Virus record (IMG/VR): IMGVR_UViG_3300043772_002313
Coordinates: 1 to 39,167 of that record
From: a virus
DNA length: 39,167 bases
Direction: 5' to 3' (one strand)
Shown here piece after piece: positions 675 to 30,129 of this stretch (within the stretch, counting starts at the first letter, position 1; each line of letters starts with the position of its first letter). The notes under the pieces are model-generated. The model made no database searches. It was given only the letters and a program-made list of their open reading frames with translations, and was not told the origin of the DNA. A program made the translations under genes and the position numbers.

Positions 675-3446
675 TTAAAAATTATTTTCAATGGCAATAC
701 AGATTTCCCCATTTTGATTTATTAATTTTTTCATATCGTTGAAGGATATAAATGCGTGTCCTTGTTTACCCCAAGTTTTTCCCCAACTATTTTTAATTCT
801 AAATAACTTTTTATTTTTATCAACCCCATTAATAACATAAGCGTGTCCTCCTATAATTCCACCGGTTGGTCGTATAATACCATTTTTATCTGGTCTAAAC
901 ATACCACGATACCAATATGTTCCAACAACAACTGGTCCCAATTCAAATACCGCTTTAATTAACGTATCAACATCAAATGCCCAATAATACGATTGAATCA
1001 TATTCTGGTCTTTTAAGAATTTAGCCCCAGCTCTAACAGAAGTGCCATCATAATTTTCACCAGGCCAAGCATCTAATTTTTGTGCTTGAGAATAAATCAA
1101 TTCCGGTGATACAATTGGTGCGATACCCTTATGTTCAACTGGCCCATCTTCAATCCAATGTGCCCAAGAATAACCAACACAATATGGTTTATTACCTTGA
1201 TTTCCCCACCATCCATCACTATTCCAAAATCTTAACATTGGTTGTGGTGAAGGTGATGGTGTTGGTTGTGGTTTTCTACTAGGTGTTTTAACGACCTTTT
1301 TTGAATTAATTCTGGTTTTAATTAAATTGAAATTATTTTTAATTAAATATTTGTTATCCCTAACATCTGGAATAAACATTCTACCCAAAAATTTATTATC
1401 TTCAGTTATTTCAATTGGTGATTCAATTGTTGAACCATTACTAATAACATATGTGAAATCATTTTCAGGGCAAACTATTGTAGAACAATCTGGACAATCT
1501 GGGTTAAACATTTCAAACTTATCTTTAAGAAGATTGAAATTATGTTTTACTTCAGGTGCGGATAATGGTACAACATACATTCTAAATTGTGATACCGCAC
1601 CCTCAAAAGTACCCGCGAAATGTTGATTAATTAAAATATTTGTATTCAAACCACTGAAGGTTGTTCCACTTAATATATCATTTGATAAACATTCTGGGTC
1701 TTGTATGTATGGTCCATTTAATTGTGTTGATGAACTAAAAGTTAAATTCTCAATCAACCCTTGTGTACCACCACCCCATGAAATGTTAAATGGAACTCCA
1801 ATTTGTTTTTCCTTATCCGTATTTAACCCTCTAGGGATTATTTCTTCAAAATTTTCAATTGTATGAAATATTTTACCATTAAGGTAAATTCTTAACCTAC
1901 CTTTACGATAATCTTTTTCCCTTAACCAATCTTCATTGATATTAACCAATTCAACTTGTTGAGGTATTGGTGAACCAGAATGATTATATTCCCCACTAAT
2001 CAATGATTGAGTATTATTCGCCAATGATTCAAGATAACTTGTTTTTGTGATAACATCTAACCCTCCTTTATAAAATAAATCACAATCATCCAAAAATTCA
2101 TATCGTTGCCAAACAACATTAACCATAAACCAATGTTCACTATCCAACCATTCAGGATTTTCTTGTTGGCATCTAGGGTATATTGGACCAGTACAATGAT
2201 TTTCAATTGTATAACCTGTTGTATACGTTATTGAACTATCACAAGTATCCGCAGTAATACAATCACCAGTAAATCGTAATACCCTAACACAAATGGATGG
2301 GTTTTTAACATCACCAGATAACTTAAAAGATATCGCATTGGAAATTGAATCATATAATGGGTCGGATTCACACGTATTCTCAATACTTGATGAACATGAA
2401 TGTTTTTTACATTCCCAACCACAAGTACCATATTCCGGTGTTGAACATCCACAATATTTACATTCATAACATGATGACTTCACGTTTGAACATTTATCAC
2501 ACCCATTGTTTTGATGATAATCATATTTGTCATCCATTGAACGAGGTGGGTAAACATAAACACAACGACTATTTGTATTCCCAGTATCACAACAAGCACA
2601 AGTATCCACTTTTTCGTGTAGTTCTTCCGTAACCCTAGTATAACCACTAATTGGTGAACCATTCGCATGATGATAAAATTTATTCTCAGCTCTAGTCCCC
2701 AAATAGAAAAAAGTGTTTTTATTATCCGGATATAAAGTATTTAGTGTGGTTTGACCACTACTAGGTGTAAATTCATTGAATAATCTAGGTTTAAGAATTA
2801 ACTCAATACTCCATCCTTTATTCATTCTATTTGGCATGACTTCATAATCATATCCAAATAATTTATAAAACCCTTGATAAAAACCACCATATAGTTCATG
2901 GTATCTTCCAATCCCCGGCAATTCTTTACCAACAACTTCATATAAAATAACGTCATTAAAACCTGAAAAAACAATATTTTGTGATGTATAACCAGTAGTT
3001 TGAAATAATTTCATTCTACGATCAAACTTAAGACGATCAAACTTATCATTATCCGATAATAATCCTTTTGTAAACGTAATCGTATTTCCGGTCATCTTAT
3101 CCACCAAACCATTATCAATACCAGTCAACCCAATATCACATAAGGTTGTTGATGAAAAACATGTTAAATCTTCATCGTTAATATTATAATAATTTTGTGA
3201 TACAAAAATATTTCCAGGATTATATGAACCATAAACCAATGGTAAATCTAGTTGGGAAGTTTCTTCATTATTTGTATCAAAATATAATGGCAATTTATTA
3301 CCATAAGTTTGAGCAATTAAGAATGGGGAAAATACAACTTCTTGATTGTAATCCATTTCATCTGAAGTCATGGCAACATAATATGTATCACGACTCAACG
3401 TAATTTTCCAATTTGGATTAAAATATTGATTAATATTTTGTGGCAC
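675..3446 (-). CDS. Large virion-type protein with C-terminal papain-like (C1A) peptidase domain
   Basis: This 923-residue protein starts at GTG (3446), after AAAAAAGAATAAC; the next in-frame Met is residue 26. The first ~700 residues look structural: a Cys-rich cluster with repeated CxxC pairs lies at about 280-360, and a region resembling a concanavalin/LamG jelly roll (RLRIYLNGKIFHTIENF) at about 515-650. A PTPSPSPQP linker at about 725-736 leads into a 187-residue papain-type domain. Its apparent catalytic set is Q750 (oxyanion), C756 (KPYCVGYSWA), H868 (GGHAYVINGVD) and N886 (KNSWGKTWG). All key residues are present, so the protease is probably active. Substrates could be virion proteins (self-processing) or host surface polymers. 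The C1A call is firm; the tail-fibre role is inferred from size and neighbours. Confidence 0.85.
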   Translation of the reverse strand: MPQNINQYFNPNWKITLSRDTYYVAMTSDEMDYNQEVVFSPFLIAQTYGNKLPLYFDTNNEETSQLDLPLVYGSYNPGNIFVSQNYYNINDEDLTCFSSTTLCDIGLTGIDNGLVDKMTGNTITFTKGLLSDNDKFDRLKFDRRMKLFQTTGYTSQNIVFSGFNDVILYEVVGKELPGIGRYHELYGGFYQGFYKLFGYDYEVMPNRMNKGWSIELILKPRLFNEFTPSSGQTTLNTLYPDNKNTFFYLGTRAENKFYHHANGSPISGYTRVTEELHEKVDTCACCDTGNTNSRCVYVYPPRSMDDKYDYHQNNGCDKCSNVKSSCYECKYCGCSTPEYGTCGWECKKHSCSSSIENTCESDPLYDSISNAISFKLSGDVKNPSICVRVLRFTGDCITADTCDSSITYTTGYTIENHCTGPIYPRCQQENPEWLDSEHWFMVNVVWQRYEFLDDCDLFYKGGLDVITKTSYLESLANNTQSLISGEYNHSGSPIPQQVELVNINEDWLREKDYRKGRLRIYLNGKIFHTIENFEEIIPRGLNTDKEKQIGVPFNISWGGGTQGLIENLTFSSSTQLNGPYIQDPECLSNDILSGTTFSGLNTNILINQHFAGTFEGAVSQFRMYVVPLSAPEVKHNFNLLKDKFEMFNPDCPDCSTIVCPENDFTYVISNGSTIESPIEITEDNKFLGRMFIPDVRDNKYLIKNNFNLIKTRINSKKVVKTPSRKPQPTPSPSPQPMLRFWNSDGWWGNQGNKPYCVGYSWAHWIEDGPVEHKGIAPIVSPELIYSQAQKLDAWPGENYDGTSVRAGAKFLKDQNMIQSYYWAFDVDTLIKAVFELGPVVVGTYWYRGMFRPDKNGIIRPTGGIIGGHAYVINGVDKNKKLFRIKNSWGKTWGKQGHAFISFNDMKKLINQNGEICIAIENNF

Positions 3447-5515: not shown

Positions 5516-6097
5516 ATGAATAACGAAAATGATTTAATTAAAAGATTAATGGTATCCAAAGCAATCATGGATAAACATAATACAATGGGTAGAGGTAGTG
5601 TCCCAACAAATATTAACTCAACACCAATGGTTGAAGATTATCAAGCACCAACTGCGAACTACAACCTACCAGAAGAATTTATGGCCGAACAAAAAACAAT
5701 ACCAAATCCACAACCATTAACCACGGATCGTATAATGAGTTCAAAACTACCTGACGCAATAAAACAACTTATGATTGAAAATCCAATCGCTCAACCAACA
5801 TCAATGGGGGGTAATACAACATTATCCGATGATTTAGTTGAAAAAGCATCAAGATTAATGAACAAAGGTACTACACCAATAACTGAACCAAGACAAAAAC
5901 AAACACCTCAACAATCCATACCTTCCATAACAGCTGATGATATTAGATCAATAGTTCGTGAAACAATGGAAGAAGTACTTAAAGAAAATGGTCTACTTGT
6001 AGAATCAACATCCAAAACAAATGAACAATTTAAGTTTAGAGTCGGTCAACATATGTTTGAAGGGAAACTATCCAAAATACGAAAAATTAGTGAATAA
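5516..6097 (+). CDS. Hypothetical protein, helical C-terminal region
   Basis: This 193-residue protein has a Pro/Gln/Asn/Thr-rich, probably disordered middle (about 35-140), then an amphipathic helix (DDIRSIVRETMEEVLKEN, about 141-158) and a short C-terminal domain (FKFRVGQHMFEGKLSKIRKI). It is the last gene of the operon and its stop lies 3 nt before a strong terminator. A structural or scaffolding-associated role is possible from the disordered and helical make-up, but no family was recognised. Confidence 0.65.
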   Translation: MNNENDLIKRLMVSKAIMDKHNTMGRGSVPTNINSTPMVEDYQAPTANYNLPEEFMAEQKTIPNPQPLTTDRIMSSKLPDAIKQLMIENPIAQPTSMGGNTTLSDDLVEKASRLMNKGTTPITEPRQKQTPQQSIPSITADDIRSIVRETMEEVLKENGLLVESTSKTNEQFKFRVGQHMFEGKLSKIRKISE

Positions 6098-6635: not shown

Positions 6636-7550
6636 ATGAAAAAACATTCGTTAGCAACAAAAGGTTTATCCTTATCACAAGCACAATCAATTTCTAATTT
6701 GTGTAATCAACGTGCGTCAGATATCGCAGCTGAGTTAAATGGTATCAACAATGTTGAGAAGAAATTAACAATTGGTGATCAAACTTATGTTGAGACAGTT
6801 GGTAAACCAGTACCTACTAATCTAACTGAATTGTTGTTAGAAAAAGCTAAACTACACGCCACTCAAGCATTCTTAATGGAGAATATTAAAGCGAAGGATT
6901 CTTTAATTAAAGAAGCTCGCTATATGGATATAGAGTTGACAATTGAACAACCTACTAGACCTAAATTGGAGGTGTTTGAACCATTAGATAATGTTGATGA
7001 AAATTTTGGTTGGTCACAACTAACTGAAAATGAAATCAATGAATATACTGAAGCGGAAGCTTATGCCGCACATATTGGTCAGTTCATTCATAAGAATGGT
7101 CCGTTAGATTCTTTAAGAAAAGAATTACCTAAAATTAAAACTTTAGAGTGGATTGAAATTGAACAAGGGAAGAAAACCCCTTTAATGGTACACATCCACC
7201 ACACTAACGAACAGTTGTTAACCATTCATAATGAATTGGCGGCTAAACATCGTCAGTACGAACAACGAGTAAACTATTTTAAGGCTAAAGTTAAAGATCT
7301 AACTACCGCTGAAAATGCTCGTATTGCCAGACACAATGCCGATGGTTTTTCTAGAGTTAATTCATCTAATGATGTATTGAATAGTCAATACCAAAAAGAA
7401 TACGCTGCGTACAACGCTGAGTTAACTAGACTACGAGAAGAACTTGAGTTCAATCGTCAAACTAAAATTAGTGAAATCGCCGCGTTAAGAATCAACGTTG
7501 ACTCAAGATTCCAGGACGTTATTGACCTTTATTTATCACAATTGAATTAA
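6636..7550 (+). CDS. Hypothetical coiled-coil protein
   Basis: This 304-residue protein opens MKKHSLATKGLSLSQAQSIS and is largely helical. Long charged helices lie at about 60-100 and about 195-290 (for example NAELTRLREELEFNRQTKI), typical of a coiled coil. There is no signal peptide or enzyme motif. It is a single-gene unit, preceded by a possible host-type promoter and followed by the structured RNA region, so the RNA could be its 3' untranslated region. No function can be assigned. Confidence 0.7.
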   Translation: MKKHSLATKGLSLSQAQSISNLCNQRASDIAAELNGINNVEKKLTIGDQTYVETVGKPVPTNLTELLLEKAKLHATQAFLMENIKAKDSLIKEARYMDIELTIEQPTRPKLEVFEPLDNVDENFGWSQLTENEINEYTEAEAYAAHIGQFIHKNGPLDSLRKELPKIKTLEWIEIEQGKKTPLMVHIHHTNEQLLTIHNELAAKHRQYEQRVNYFKAKVKDLTTAENARIARHNADGFSRVNSSNDVLNSQYQKEYAAYNAELTRLREELEFNRQTKISEIAALRINVDSRFQDVIDLYLSQLN

Positions 7551-7557
7551 TAAGGTT

Positions 7558-7590
7558 GGGGGTGGTTAAACAGAAGTTGATATCACCCCC
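7558..7590 (+). other. GC-rich hairpin after the coiled-coil gene
   Basis: GGGGGTG (7558-7564) pairs with CACCCCC (7584-7590) around a 19-nt loop. No T-run follows, so it is not a typical terminator. It may protect the mRNA 3' end or be the first helix of the RNA element that follows. Confidence 0.6.
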
Positions 7591-7595
7591 ATTTA

Positions 7596-7878
7596 GGTTT
7601 GATAGGGTAGGTTTTCTGAAAATATAAGATATAGTATATACAGCCTAAGATAACTGCAACAAGTAGTTATAACTTAATATTTTCCGCTCTATCTACAAAT
7701 TCTTAAAACTGAGTTTTGACTCTAATGACCACACAGGTTAACCGGATAGGTACAACTGGGTGGTAAAAACAAGACTTAGATTTTGATTTTGCCTTTGAGT
7801 AGGTAGAGGTCTTTGATATTGGTATTGGTTTTAACTTTATCTATGTATCCTACTTTATCAAACCACTTATTTTTTTTT
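7596..7878 (+). ncRNA. Candidate structured non-coding RNA (or long structured 3' UTR)
   Basis: The 431-nt gap between genes has no ORF worth calling but can form nested helices. GGTTTGATAGGGTAGG (7596-7611) pairs over all 16 positions with 7849-7864, with two G-U pairs. Inside it, CTCTATCTAC (7687-7696) pairs with GTAGGTAGAG (7799-7808), TCTAA (7721-7725) with TTAGA (7776-7780), and ACCAC (7728-7732) with GTGGT (7760-7764). Local hairpins occur at 7650-7670 (ATAACT/AGTTAT) and 7705-7717 (AAAAC/GTTTT). A run of nine T at 7870-7878 follows the closing helix and could end the transcript. No match to tRNA, tmRNA, RNase P or 6S RNA was recognised. The pairing is seen in the sequence; RNA function is inference. 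Confidence 0.55.
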
Positions 7879-7914
7879 CAACATTTATAATAAATCCACA
7901 AATAAAAATTGACT

Positions 7915-7943
7915 TATAGGTATCAAAAACCTATATTTTCTTT
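7915..7943 (+). terminator. Weak terminator-like hairpin
   Basis: TATAGGT (7915-7921) pairs with ACCTATA (7929-7935), giving a 7-bp stem and 7-nt loop, followed by a broken T-run (TTTTCTTT). It could stop read-through from the upstream RNA before the glycosyltransferase operon. Confidence 0.4.
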
Positions 7944-7959
7944 AATGGGTTAACCCCAC

Positions 7960-7967
7960 TATAAATA
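7960..7967 (+). promoter_or_regulatory. T4-late-type promoter match (TATAAATA)
   Basis: An exact TATAAATA, the consensus read by gp55-type sigma factors, lies 14 nt before the ATG at 7982. It supports 7982, not the internal ATG at 8093, as the translation start of the glycosyltransferase gene. Confidence 0.5.
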
Positions 7968-7981
7968 AAAATTAATTAAAT

Positions 7982-9268
7982 ATGATAAATAACAACCCCT
8001 TGAATGGTCGTGATAAGATTAGAGTGTTAGCTCTAGCTTCAGACCAGTCGGGGGTTGGCTGAGGTAAATACCGTACAGTCGACCCCCATGTTATGCTACA
8101 GGAAATGTATGGTGATGAATTCCATGTAGATATTGACCCAAATCCAAACATCAATGACGCAAATTATTGGAGAAAATATGATATTGTTCATGTTCACCGA
8201 AATATTGGTCATTCATACGAACAGAATTTGGAAATTATGGACTTCTTGAAAAAAGAAGGAATCGTTACTGTTTATGATATTGATGATTATTGGCTACCAA
8301 CAAAAGAACATCCAATTCATTCATTGATTGTTAAACATAAAATACATGAAAAAATCGTTGCTAACCTTAAAAAAGCGGACTACGTGACGACAACAACAAG
8401 TGTGTTCGCTAGTGAAATTATGAAGTTTAATAAAAATGTTCATATTTTTCCCAACGCAATCAATCCAGATGAAAAACAATTTAATGTACCAACATTAGAG
8501 TGTGATAAGGTTAGAGTTGGTTGGATTGGTGGGTCATCACATTTTCACGATCTTAAATTATTAGATGGTTTTATTGGTAAAAATTCATCAATCAATAAAG
8601 ATATCCAATATGTATTGTGTGGTTTTGACACTAGAGGTTCAGTTACTGAAATCAATCAACAAACTGGTGAAGAACGTAAAAGGGATATTAGACCAGAAGA
8701 AACTGTATGGACTAAATACGAAGCGATTTTCACAAATAATTATAAAACTGTTGACGAAAATTATTTGAAATTTTTACAACAATATAAAGATGAACAATAT
8801 GTTTGTGATTATACATTACCATATAGAAGAATTTGGACTTTACCAGTGAACACTTATGCGTCGCATTATTCCAATATTGATATTTCATTAGCACCAATAA
8901 AGAACCATGTTTTCAATAGAATGAAATCACAATTAAAGGTCATTGAAGCTGGTTTTTATAAAAAGGCGTTAATCGCATCAAATGTTGGACCATATACAAT
9001 TGATTTGACACATTCATTAAAAAATGGTATATTTGGTGATGGGAACGCGTTATTAGTTGACGAGGTTAAGAATCATAGTGATTGGTCGAAGTATATTAAA
9101 AAACTAGTTGAAAATCCAAATATGGTTAAAGATATGGGTGAACGATTATATGAAACAGTTAAAGATACCTACAACCTTAGAACGGTTACCAAAAATAGAC
9201 GTGAATTTTATAAAAGTATAGTAAATGTTAAAGCATCCGATAACCAAAATCTTGTTCATGGATATTGA
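7982..9268 (+). CDS. GT-B glycosyltransferase (family 4-like) with in-frame TGA at codon 27
   Basis: The frame opens at 7982 with MINNNPLNGRDKIRVLALAS, the first Rossmann strand, and reaches DQSGVG before TGA at 8060-8062. It then continues unbroken with GKYRTVDPHVMLQEMYGDEF to TGA at 9266. Without the TGA and the following Gly codon the junction reads GVGKYR, the usual GVGxYR pattern of this phage glycosyltransferase type. A GGGGGT/ACCCCC stem (8050-8055 with 8082-8087) brackets the site. The C-terminal half carries VGWIGGSSHFHDLKLL and the donor-site block KSQLKVIEAGFYKKALIAS. A truncated start at 8093 is the conservative alternative, but it would lose the first strand and conserved Gly loop. 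The stop overlaps the next gene by 44 nt. Confidence 0.75.
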
Positions 9269-28593: not shown

Positions 28594-30129
28594 TTAAAAA
28601 TTTAATTGGTATAAAAAATTACCACAATCGTAGATTTTAGGTAATATATCTAATAAATCCTTGTCATTTTTTTTAATTTCAGACCTAGAATATCTTTTAT
28701 GTTTATATAAATAAAAATAATTGGGTGATAAATCATCAACTAACTTAAAACCAAATTTTTCAATATCACCACCCCAACGATTATCAATTACCCAATTTAT
28801 TTTAGATGGTGTGTAGGTTTTAATCAAATATCCCAAAAGGATTTCAATCCCACCATTGATAGAATAATTTTTTAATTCACAATAATATACTACCTCAAAA
28901 CTATTATCATTCTTTTTATTAAATGAAGTAATACCAATGATTTTATTGTTATAATACACCCCAATATCAATAGATGTTGATTTCAATGGGACAAAACTAT
29001 TTTCACTTAAAAACTTATTTTTTAATTTTTTATTAATAGGTTTTATTTCACAATCATCTATATCTATTTTATATTCATTCAACCCTAATAACCTAATTAA
29101 ATCATTTTTAACAATATCTTGATTATCATCCCATTCGTCCTCAAAAATATGAATTAACTTAACTCCATTTTCAATACATTTTTTAGTTTTATTAATATGA
29201 TAGTCAGATTCTCTAAATACATCTGAATGAAAATATAACCCATTGAACTCAACACCAATGTTGAATTCAGGTAAGTAGATATCAATTTCTTGACCACCTA
29301 AAATTTTAGTATTGTTATTTTCAACAATAACACCCAAATTACTTAAAAATTCACTTAATTGTTTTTCTTTAATTGATCTAATAGTATTTACTGGATTACA
29401 AACTAAACAAGGATCGACAGAATTAGTCGTTCTATGAACGAATGTTGCCACTATTGTTGAATATTCAGATAAACAAGTACCACACTTTATGGTTAGTTGA
29501 TACCCATTCCTATTAATAATATTATATTCACTGTATTTGTTTAAGAAATTATTTAGTTGTGATTCTTTAAGTTTATCTCTGCTTCTGTTTAAAACTAACG
29601 GTGTTGACACACCATAACGTTCAATATTAGTGTTAAGTGTTTTTTGTTTCACTTCAGGTAATTTATTCATTGAATTCACCCCATGTTTTTCAAAAATCTT
29701 ATTTTGTATATATTGATTATCTTTGAATAAATTATCCACCCCATATTTTTCTATATTGGTTTTAGATGTTTTATCCCTAATTTCTTTTGAAGCTATCGGT
29801 GCGTTGCCCCCATATTTAATGTTATTGGTTTTTTTAACGTTTTCAATATGTACTTCACTTTTATTAGTACATGTTAATGAACAGTAAACACCATACCCTT
29901 CCTTTAATGACCTACCAAATTTTAATTCTTTTTCACAATATTCACAACATGGGATATCTTTAACGTTATATATATAGTGCCAAATACGTTGTTTTAATGA
30001 AATTTCTGGAATATGATTTGTATAGTTATTCACGTCATTAAATAACTCATTATGTTTTTTCTTCAAAAAACGTTCGGTTGTTTTATACCCCGATTTATTA
30101 TCGTTAAGAAAAAAATTAATTAAATCCAT
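28594..30129 (-). CDS. Free-standing homing-type endonuclease (Vsr/EDxHD-like) with Zn clusters
   Basis: The 511-residue protein starts with a Cys cluster (C61, C62, C65, C83, C87). Repeats of the NIEKYGV kind follow at about 105-175, typical of modular homing endonuclease DNA-binding regions. A second Cys set is at C216, C219, C241, C244. The nuclease core (about 275-335) shows E281/D283 (QEIDIYLPEFNIGVEFNG), E294, H301 and HIFEDEW (H327-W333), the Vsr-like EDxHD arrangement. The last ~150 residues resemble the GNAT-like tail of the second endonuclease at 30776. It lies next to the tail tube gene, a conserved target type for such mobile genes. Activity looks intact. Confidence 0.75.
   Translation of the reverse strand: MDLINFFLNDNKSGYKTTERFLKKKHNELFNDVNNYTNHIPEISLKQRIWHYIYNVKDIPCCEYCEKELKFGRSLKEGYGVYCSLTCTNKSEVHIENVKKTNNIKYGGNAPIASKEIRDKTSKTNIEKYGVDNLFKDNQYIQNKIFEKHGVNSMNKLPEVKQKTLNTNIERYGVSTPLVLNRSRDKLKESQLNNFLNKYSEYNIINRNGYQLTIKCGTCLSEYSTIVATFVHRTTNSVDPCLVCNPVNTIRSIKEKQLSEFLSNLGVIVENNNTKILGGQEIDIYLPEFNIGVEFNGLYFHSDVFRESDYHINKTKKCIENGVKLIHIFEDEWDDNQDIVKNDLIRLLGLNEYKIDIDDCEIKPINKKLKNKFLSENSFVPLKSTSIDIGVYYNNKIIGITSFNKKNDNSFEVVYYCELKNYSINGGIEILLGYLIKTYTPSKINWVIDNRWGGDIEKFGFKLVDDLSPNYFYLYKHKRYSRSEIKKNDKDLLDILPKIYDCGNFLYQLNF

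Follow-up and report, generated by a model that had tools for sequence, protein, structure and literature searches.

The question raised by this locus is how a phage glycosyltransferase gene is expressed when a stop codon lies in frame directly after its first 26 codons. The window, i.e. the whole stretch of DNA that was analysed, is a 39 kb virus record (39,167 nucleotides). A preliminary description of it had reported an in-frame Gly-TGA-Gly at codon 27 followed by an open frame, and had proposed that the ribosome hops over 6 nt from one glycine codon to the other. The interruption was verified at the window coordinates, and the frame is open from GGT (8063-8065) through TGA (9266-9268). The 6-nt Gly-to-Gly hop is supported and is now the best-supported reading of the gene, and it remains unproven by experiment. 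We regard expression via programmed translational bypassing, in the form of a 6-nt Gly-to-Gly stop hop, as very likely, with no peptide, ribosome-profiling or reporter data at hand. The features of the gene and its surroundings are as follows.

5516-6097, + strand: upstream gene, which in related phages directly precedes the glycosyltransferase or an inserted homing endonuclease
7982, + strand: ATG start of the glycosyltransferase, from the window sequence
7982-8059, + strand: coding segment 1 of the glycosyltransferase, 26 codons, MINNNPLNGRDKIRVLALASDQSGVG, holding the N-terminal extension that is specific to gapped copies
7993-8057, + strand: 5' stem-loop, in which CAACCCCT (7993-8000) pairs with GGGGGTTG (8050-8057), based on folding and covariation
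8050-8087, + strand: take-off stem-loop, in which 8050-8061 pairs with 8076-8087 and, inside it, GGT (8063-8065) pairs with ACC (8070-8072)
8057-8059, + strand: putative take-off codon GGC (Gly26)
8060-8062, + strand: in-frame stop TGA, first half of the 6-nt coding gap
8063-8065, + strand: putative landing codon GGT, second half of the 6-nt coding gap
8066-9268, + strand: coding segment 2 of the glycosyltransferase (KYRTVDPH...), PHROG 7162, with its stop TGA at 9266-9268

The body of the window gene matches PHROG 7162, glycosyltransferase. No relative of the protein was found in the PDB, one distant relative was present in the genome contigs searched, and no Rfam match was obtained near the hop site.

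The conserved gap was established by searches of increasing freedom. An IMG/VR protein search returned 78 relatives, most of which read PSD.(S/T)GVGKFRS without a stop; the same Gly-stop-Gly insert was present in five contigs, three of them identical at the hop site and one carrying TAA. A DNA pattern with both Gly codons fixed and the middle codon free recovered 31 contigs, each with TGA or TAA. When the three codons around the stop were all left free in a scan of 2.9 million contigs, every one of the 32 matches was GGY-TRA-GGN. The Gly-stop-Gly site is far beyond chance (32/32 viral contigs with this spacing), and a sense codon in place of the stop was never found in any copy with the 6-nt insert. 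The gapped glycosyltransferase copies, 32 of which are distinct, are spread across dozens of viral contigs and many samples, and the in-frame TGA of the window gene is genuine and not a sequencing error.

Divergent phages share the stop and the Gly codons on either side of it. The take-off codon is GGY in every gapped copy, followed directly by the stop in all of them except one (L198), and the landing codon is GGN immediately before AAR for gaps of 5, 6, 11, 13 and 45 nt. The third bases of the two Gly codons are not always identical. The stop itself varies, TGA and TAA being used interchangeably in the 6-nt class and TAG in the 5-nt form (L187). About 100 gapless relatives read SGVGKFR or SGVGKYR, which is the motif of the predicted hop product, and the earlier claim that this product would match the usual GVGxYR pattern of the enzyme held. 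It is possible that the flanking Gly codons stem partly from the insertion process rather than from landing-site selection. One gapless copy (L263, near 2001) reads SGVS-KFR, a rare natural change at the Gly that is used elsewhere for take-off.

Copies whose halves lie in different frames were found with a variable-gap pattern, and one more was added by a profile search with free upstream context. The gap is 5 nt in L187 (GGT-TAGGT-AAA), 11 nt in L174, L177 and L195 (GGT-TAACTAAAGGT-AAA) and 13 nt in L264 (GGC-TGAATTTAAAGGA-AAA). These gaps sit at the same point as the 6-nt gap and each ends in GGN-AAA; they are out of frame, and therefore read-through cannot join the halves of those members. 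A 45-nt gap in L198 (374-538, - strand) is in frame and holds an 11-bp hairpin that includes CCCCCAC/GTGGGGG; it is a single copy whose body is cut by the contig end. A single rule, to leave GGY and to land on the last GGN before AAR, yields the gapless protein for every gap class. No bypass candidate was found among other genes split out of frame, in a search that required a first part of at least 60 aa and was thereby blind to the out-of-frame copies of the glycosyltransferase itself.

Purifying selection acts on both halves of the gene. Among gapped copies, pN/pS was 0.25 for the 17 codons up to and including the take-off codon and 0.22 for the 30 codons that follow the gap, and the intact bodies are about 386-400 aa long. 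Internal initiation is not a general answer, because the first 62-165 codons past the gap contain no ATG, GTG or TTG in five members (L026, L080, L091, L097 and L168).

The genetic code of these phages was examined over about 2420 ORFs, in which TAA, TGA and TAG are all ordinary terminators. A scan for conserved stops spanned by coding sequence, restricted to non-overlapping ORFs to exclude antisense frames, identified the glycosyltransferase site as the only recurrent conserved in-frame stop. Searches for a suppressor tRNA were negative, including in phages with some 25 tRNA genes, and no tRNA gene was found in the 39 kb window. Stop reassignment through an alternative code was rejected, as all three stops serve as terminators and neither a suppressor tRNA nor any other recurrent conserved in-frame stop was found. 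Some relatives (L131, L132, L144, L145 and L146) carry about 24-25 tRNA genes with tRNA-Gly(UCC) present; tRNA-Gly(GCC) was not found in them, and one has a tmRNA.

The start codon of gapped copies lies 9-11 codons upstream of that of gapless ones. In a tree of 135 bodies, this N-terminal extension is present in 30 of the 31 gapped rows versus one of the 104 gapless rows, and the two exceptions are artefacts, one of a truncated contig and the other of an upstream in-frame Met. The gap state changes 20 times on this tree, at least 10 of the changes being forced by well-supported branches, and the extension tracks the gap in a sign test over 10 independent pairs (p about 0.004). The extension also follows the gap rather than the neighbouring endonuclease gene described below: L029 and L237 have the endonuclease without gap or extension, and the window, L104, L174, L177, L195 and L198 have gap and extension without the endonuclease.

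The extension contains the 5' arm of a long hairpin. The opposite, 3' arm (GGGGTTG or GGAGTTG) runs up to and includes the first bases of the take-off codon, and in the window it stops at the first G of that codon. In comparison with protein-preserving synonymous shuffles, this 5' stem-loop had a mean z of -5.2 in 29 distinct gapped copies versus 0.0 in 94 gapless copies, and in the window its MFE was -33.0 (z -7.4). The arms covary among copies (CAACTCCAG/CTGGAGTTG in L264, CAACCCCAG/CTGGGGTTG in L107, ACTCCGG/CCGGAGT in L085 and CCCCTGA/TCAGGGG in L187). With the arms placed using each sequence's own fold, the inner pair at position -7 was standard in 21/21 distinct arm sets, with six pair types, and the covariation score was 0.307 versus 0.168 in shuffles and at most 0.13 with the partner slid. 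RNAalifold on a plain MAFFT alignment gave no consensus structure because the register of the 5' arm differs between subclades. The same stretch also encodes a conserved extension peptide (P..GR.+I+VLV).

A second structure, the take-off stem-loop, had been described in part as a GGGGGT/ACCCCC stem (8050-8055 with 8082-8087). That stem held and extends to 12 bp, GGGGGTTGGCTG (8050-8061) pairing with CAGTCGACCCCC (8076-8087) around GGC and TGA, with z -8.3 versus synonymous shuffles. It encloses the take-off codon, the stop and the landing codon, the GGT being paired in an inner stem, and only one of the two stem-loops can form at a time. The take-off stem-loop is strong in the window and in the majority of TGA copies, and in the TGA/GGC subclass it surrounds the stop and GGC; most TAA copies, and the 5-, 11- and 13-nt copies, have it in weak form or not at all. 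The preliminary description had missed three features: the hairpin built by the extension, which is the more general of the two, the sister copies with out-of-frame gaps, and the link to a homing endonuclease.

An endonuclease gene of about 300 aa lies directly upstream of most gapped copies and overlaps their start. Its product contains a resolvase-like helix-turn-helix and NUMOD3, the latter matching the I-TevI DNA-binding domain in the PDB (1i3j); it also has a nuclease domain of the PD-(D/E)XK type (Pfam MTES_1575, E 2e-5, under the curated cut-off). The endonuclease or a remnant of it was found upstream of 26/32 gapped versus 2/98 gapless copies (Fisher p 2e-19). In the gapless L029 and L237, which have the endonuclease and no extension, the enzymes may have a different target site, or a gap may once have been present and then disappeared.

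The same upstream neighbour occurs with and without the endonuclease insert. Between this upstream gene and the GVG codons lie 90-210 nt in almost every gapless copy; the distance is about 1,060-1,260 nt where the endonuclease is intact and 180-470 nt where it is degraded or lost (684 nt in L104). In the window, the match to the upstream gene ends 1,956 nt before GVG and another ORF (6636-7550) lies between. This 304-aa ORF lies at the place taken in other phages by the endonuclease, has no Pfam or PHROG match, and is followed by a long non-coding stretch (7551-7981). Some gapped and gapless copies form close pairs (L177/L201 with 93% body identity, L264/L237 with 90%). The distances of the endonuclease, the gap-region DNA and the body correlate about equally with one another (Spearman 0.53-0.69), and therefore independent travel of the cassette is shown only by the close gapped/gapless pairs on the tree.

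The conserved gap, frames, hairpins and linkage are shown by the sequence; the hop itself, its efficiency and immunity to cleavage are inferred. In the mechanism that we propose, the ribosome would stall after translating 26 codons, its A site occupied by the stop and its peptidyl-tRNA-Gly paired with GGC. The tRNA-Gly would then release GGC, the mRNA would move by 6 nt, and the same tRNA would re-pair with GGT, so that decoding would resume at AAA to give ...SGVG-KYR..., the protein that gapless relatives encode directly. Across the family, the movement would span 5-13 nt (perhaps 45 in L198) with re-pairing at the GGN before AAR. Likely drivers, as in T4 gene 60, would be the 5' stem-loop, whose 5' arm is supplied by the N-terminal extension and which would re-form in the wake of the ribosome, and, for the majority of TGA copies, the take-off stem-loop around the stop. 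The gap is inferred to have arisen as part of a homing-endonuclease cassette with the endonuclease gene upstream; it would probably make the gene uncleavable, and the hop would keep the gene working. In the window, the endonuclease would have gone while the bypass remained.

The rival that survives best, and is still unlikely, is read-through, in which the stop is decoded as an amino acid to give GVG-X-G-KYR with two extra residues. Stop-codon read-through is common in nature, and the 6-nt gap keeps the frame, which leaves this explanation open only for the in-frame 6-nt class taken alone. It is impossible for the 5-, 11- and 13-nt members. Further against it, TGA and TAA are interchangeable and L187 has TAG, with no suppressor tRNA found; none of the roughly 100 gapless copies has extra residues in the motif, and the insert was never seen with a sense codon.

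Two other explanations are very unlikely. In the first, the gene yields two products, a 26-aa peptide and a second protein re-initiated downstream of the stop. An ATG does lie nine codons past the gap in the window and in many members, and initiation at the ATG at 8093 had been listed among the earlier alternatives; it failed, since several members (the five named above) lack any ATG, GTG or TTG over the first 62-165 codons past the gap. Conservation is also strong in the residues ahead of that ATG, and purifying selection acts on the upstream half, which on this account would be merely a fragment.

In the second, the halves are joined by ordinary frameshifting or by a slip on an internal Shine-Dalgarno sequence like that of RF2, the kind of shift differing by member. 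In its favour, the shift codon is closely preceded by GGGGTT, an arrangement resembling that of prfB, and inspection shows an open -1 frame in the 5- and 11-nt members and an open +1 frame in the 13-nt member. However, tRNA-Gly cannot, by inspection, re-pair after a -1 (TGG) or +1 (GCT) shift, the 6-nt members need no net shift, the product would differ for each class, and these phages show no use of Shine-Dalgarno sequences (31/541 versus 23.6 expected). The idea of an internal Shine-Dalgarno sequence was dropped on this lack of use and on the covariation of the GGGG with the extension. A decayed pseudogene or a sequencing error, suggested by the metagenomic origin of the sequences, is all but excluded. 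Against it stand 32 distinct copies from many samples and independent contigs, of which some recur identically on different contigs, along with intact bodies, purifying selection in either half and selected RNA structure; the earlier alternatives of assembly error and decay failed accordingly.

Programmed bypassing thus remains the preferred reading, and its nearest known counterpart is T4 gene 60. The likeness to that gene had been suggested before and held more deeply than was claimed: both have a Gly take-off codon, a stop immediately 3' and a matched Gly landing codon (PMC5009743, PMC11194080, PMC3014915), together with a 5' stem-loop, an early position in the gene, an adjacent homing endonuclease gene (mobA in T4) and, as far as the window and most TGA copies are concerned, a take-off stem-loop. 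In T4, mobA is the neighbour of gene 60, and the 50-nt insert may serve as a shield from the nuclease (PMC3014915, PMC5009743). The glycosyltransferase gap satisfies the gene 60-type sequence criteria that were tested, with the take-off stem-loop as an exception in that only part of the family has it in strong form; the product is inferred from sequence. The two systems also differ in several respects. The gap of gene 60 is 50 nt, whereas that of the glycosyltransferase family is 5-13 nt (once 45, in L198, the size closest to T4 gene 60). Gene 60 is a topoisomerase gene with a KKYK nascent-peptide signal, and no KKYK was seen in the glycosyltransferase family. MobA is of the HNH type, whereas the endonuclease described here is PD-(D/E)XK-like. 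Unlike gene 60, the host gene is not split, and the family occurs in many phages instead of one.

Matched codons likewise flank the stop in the synthetic 'stop hops' (Weiss et al. 1987, cited in PMC5009743), in which 9 nt give one amino acid (+5 and +6 hops); those are laboratory constructs, unlike the natural glycosyltransferase gaps. The byp elements of Magnusiomyces capitatus mitochondria are also untranslated inserts bypassed from a take-off to a landing codon. They occupy 81 sites in one mitochondrial genome and are apparently independent of mRNA context (PMC5009743), whereas the glycosyltransferase family has one site, in phages, with selected hairpins and a linked endonuclease. The +1 frameshift of prfB (RF2) shares a G-rich stretch a few nucleotides before the shift codon and then a stop. 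In contrast to prfB, no +1 product fits here, the phages show no Shine-Dalgarno use, and the G-rich bases make up a hairpin arm in covariation with the extension.

No report of this glycosyltransferase bypass family was found in the literature searched. A 2016 review stated that natural in-frame stop hops were unknown and that counterparts of T4 gene 60 had long been expected (PMC5009743); programmed bypassing in phages has so far firmly rested on that one gene. The evidence leans, by a modest margin, towards a bolder reading, in which widespread phage mobile cassettes would consist of a homing endonuclease, a hairpin-building start extension and a bypass gap of 5-45 nt. The endonuclease would spread the cassette, the gap would give immunity to cleavage and the stop hop would make the insert harmless; on this reading, stop hops would be seen in nature for the first time, and the mobA/gene 60 arrangement would have originated a second time independently. 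If bypassing is true, dozens of members with five gap lengths, three frames, gapless sisters and covarying hairpins would permit a comparative study of which parts of the signal are needed, and the family would put to the test the proposal that bypassing evolves to remedy homing-endonuclease insertions. Gene callers shorten such genes (the ORF of the window gene was listed from 8093), and therefore others may be hidden.

Two further proteins were observed elsewhere in the window, both on the - strand. A 511-aa homing-endonuclease-like protein (PHROG 3339; Pfam DUF7487) is encoded at 28594-30129, and a 923-aa protein with a C-terminal papain-like cysteine protease domain (PF00112) is encoded at 675-3446.
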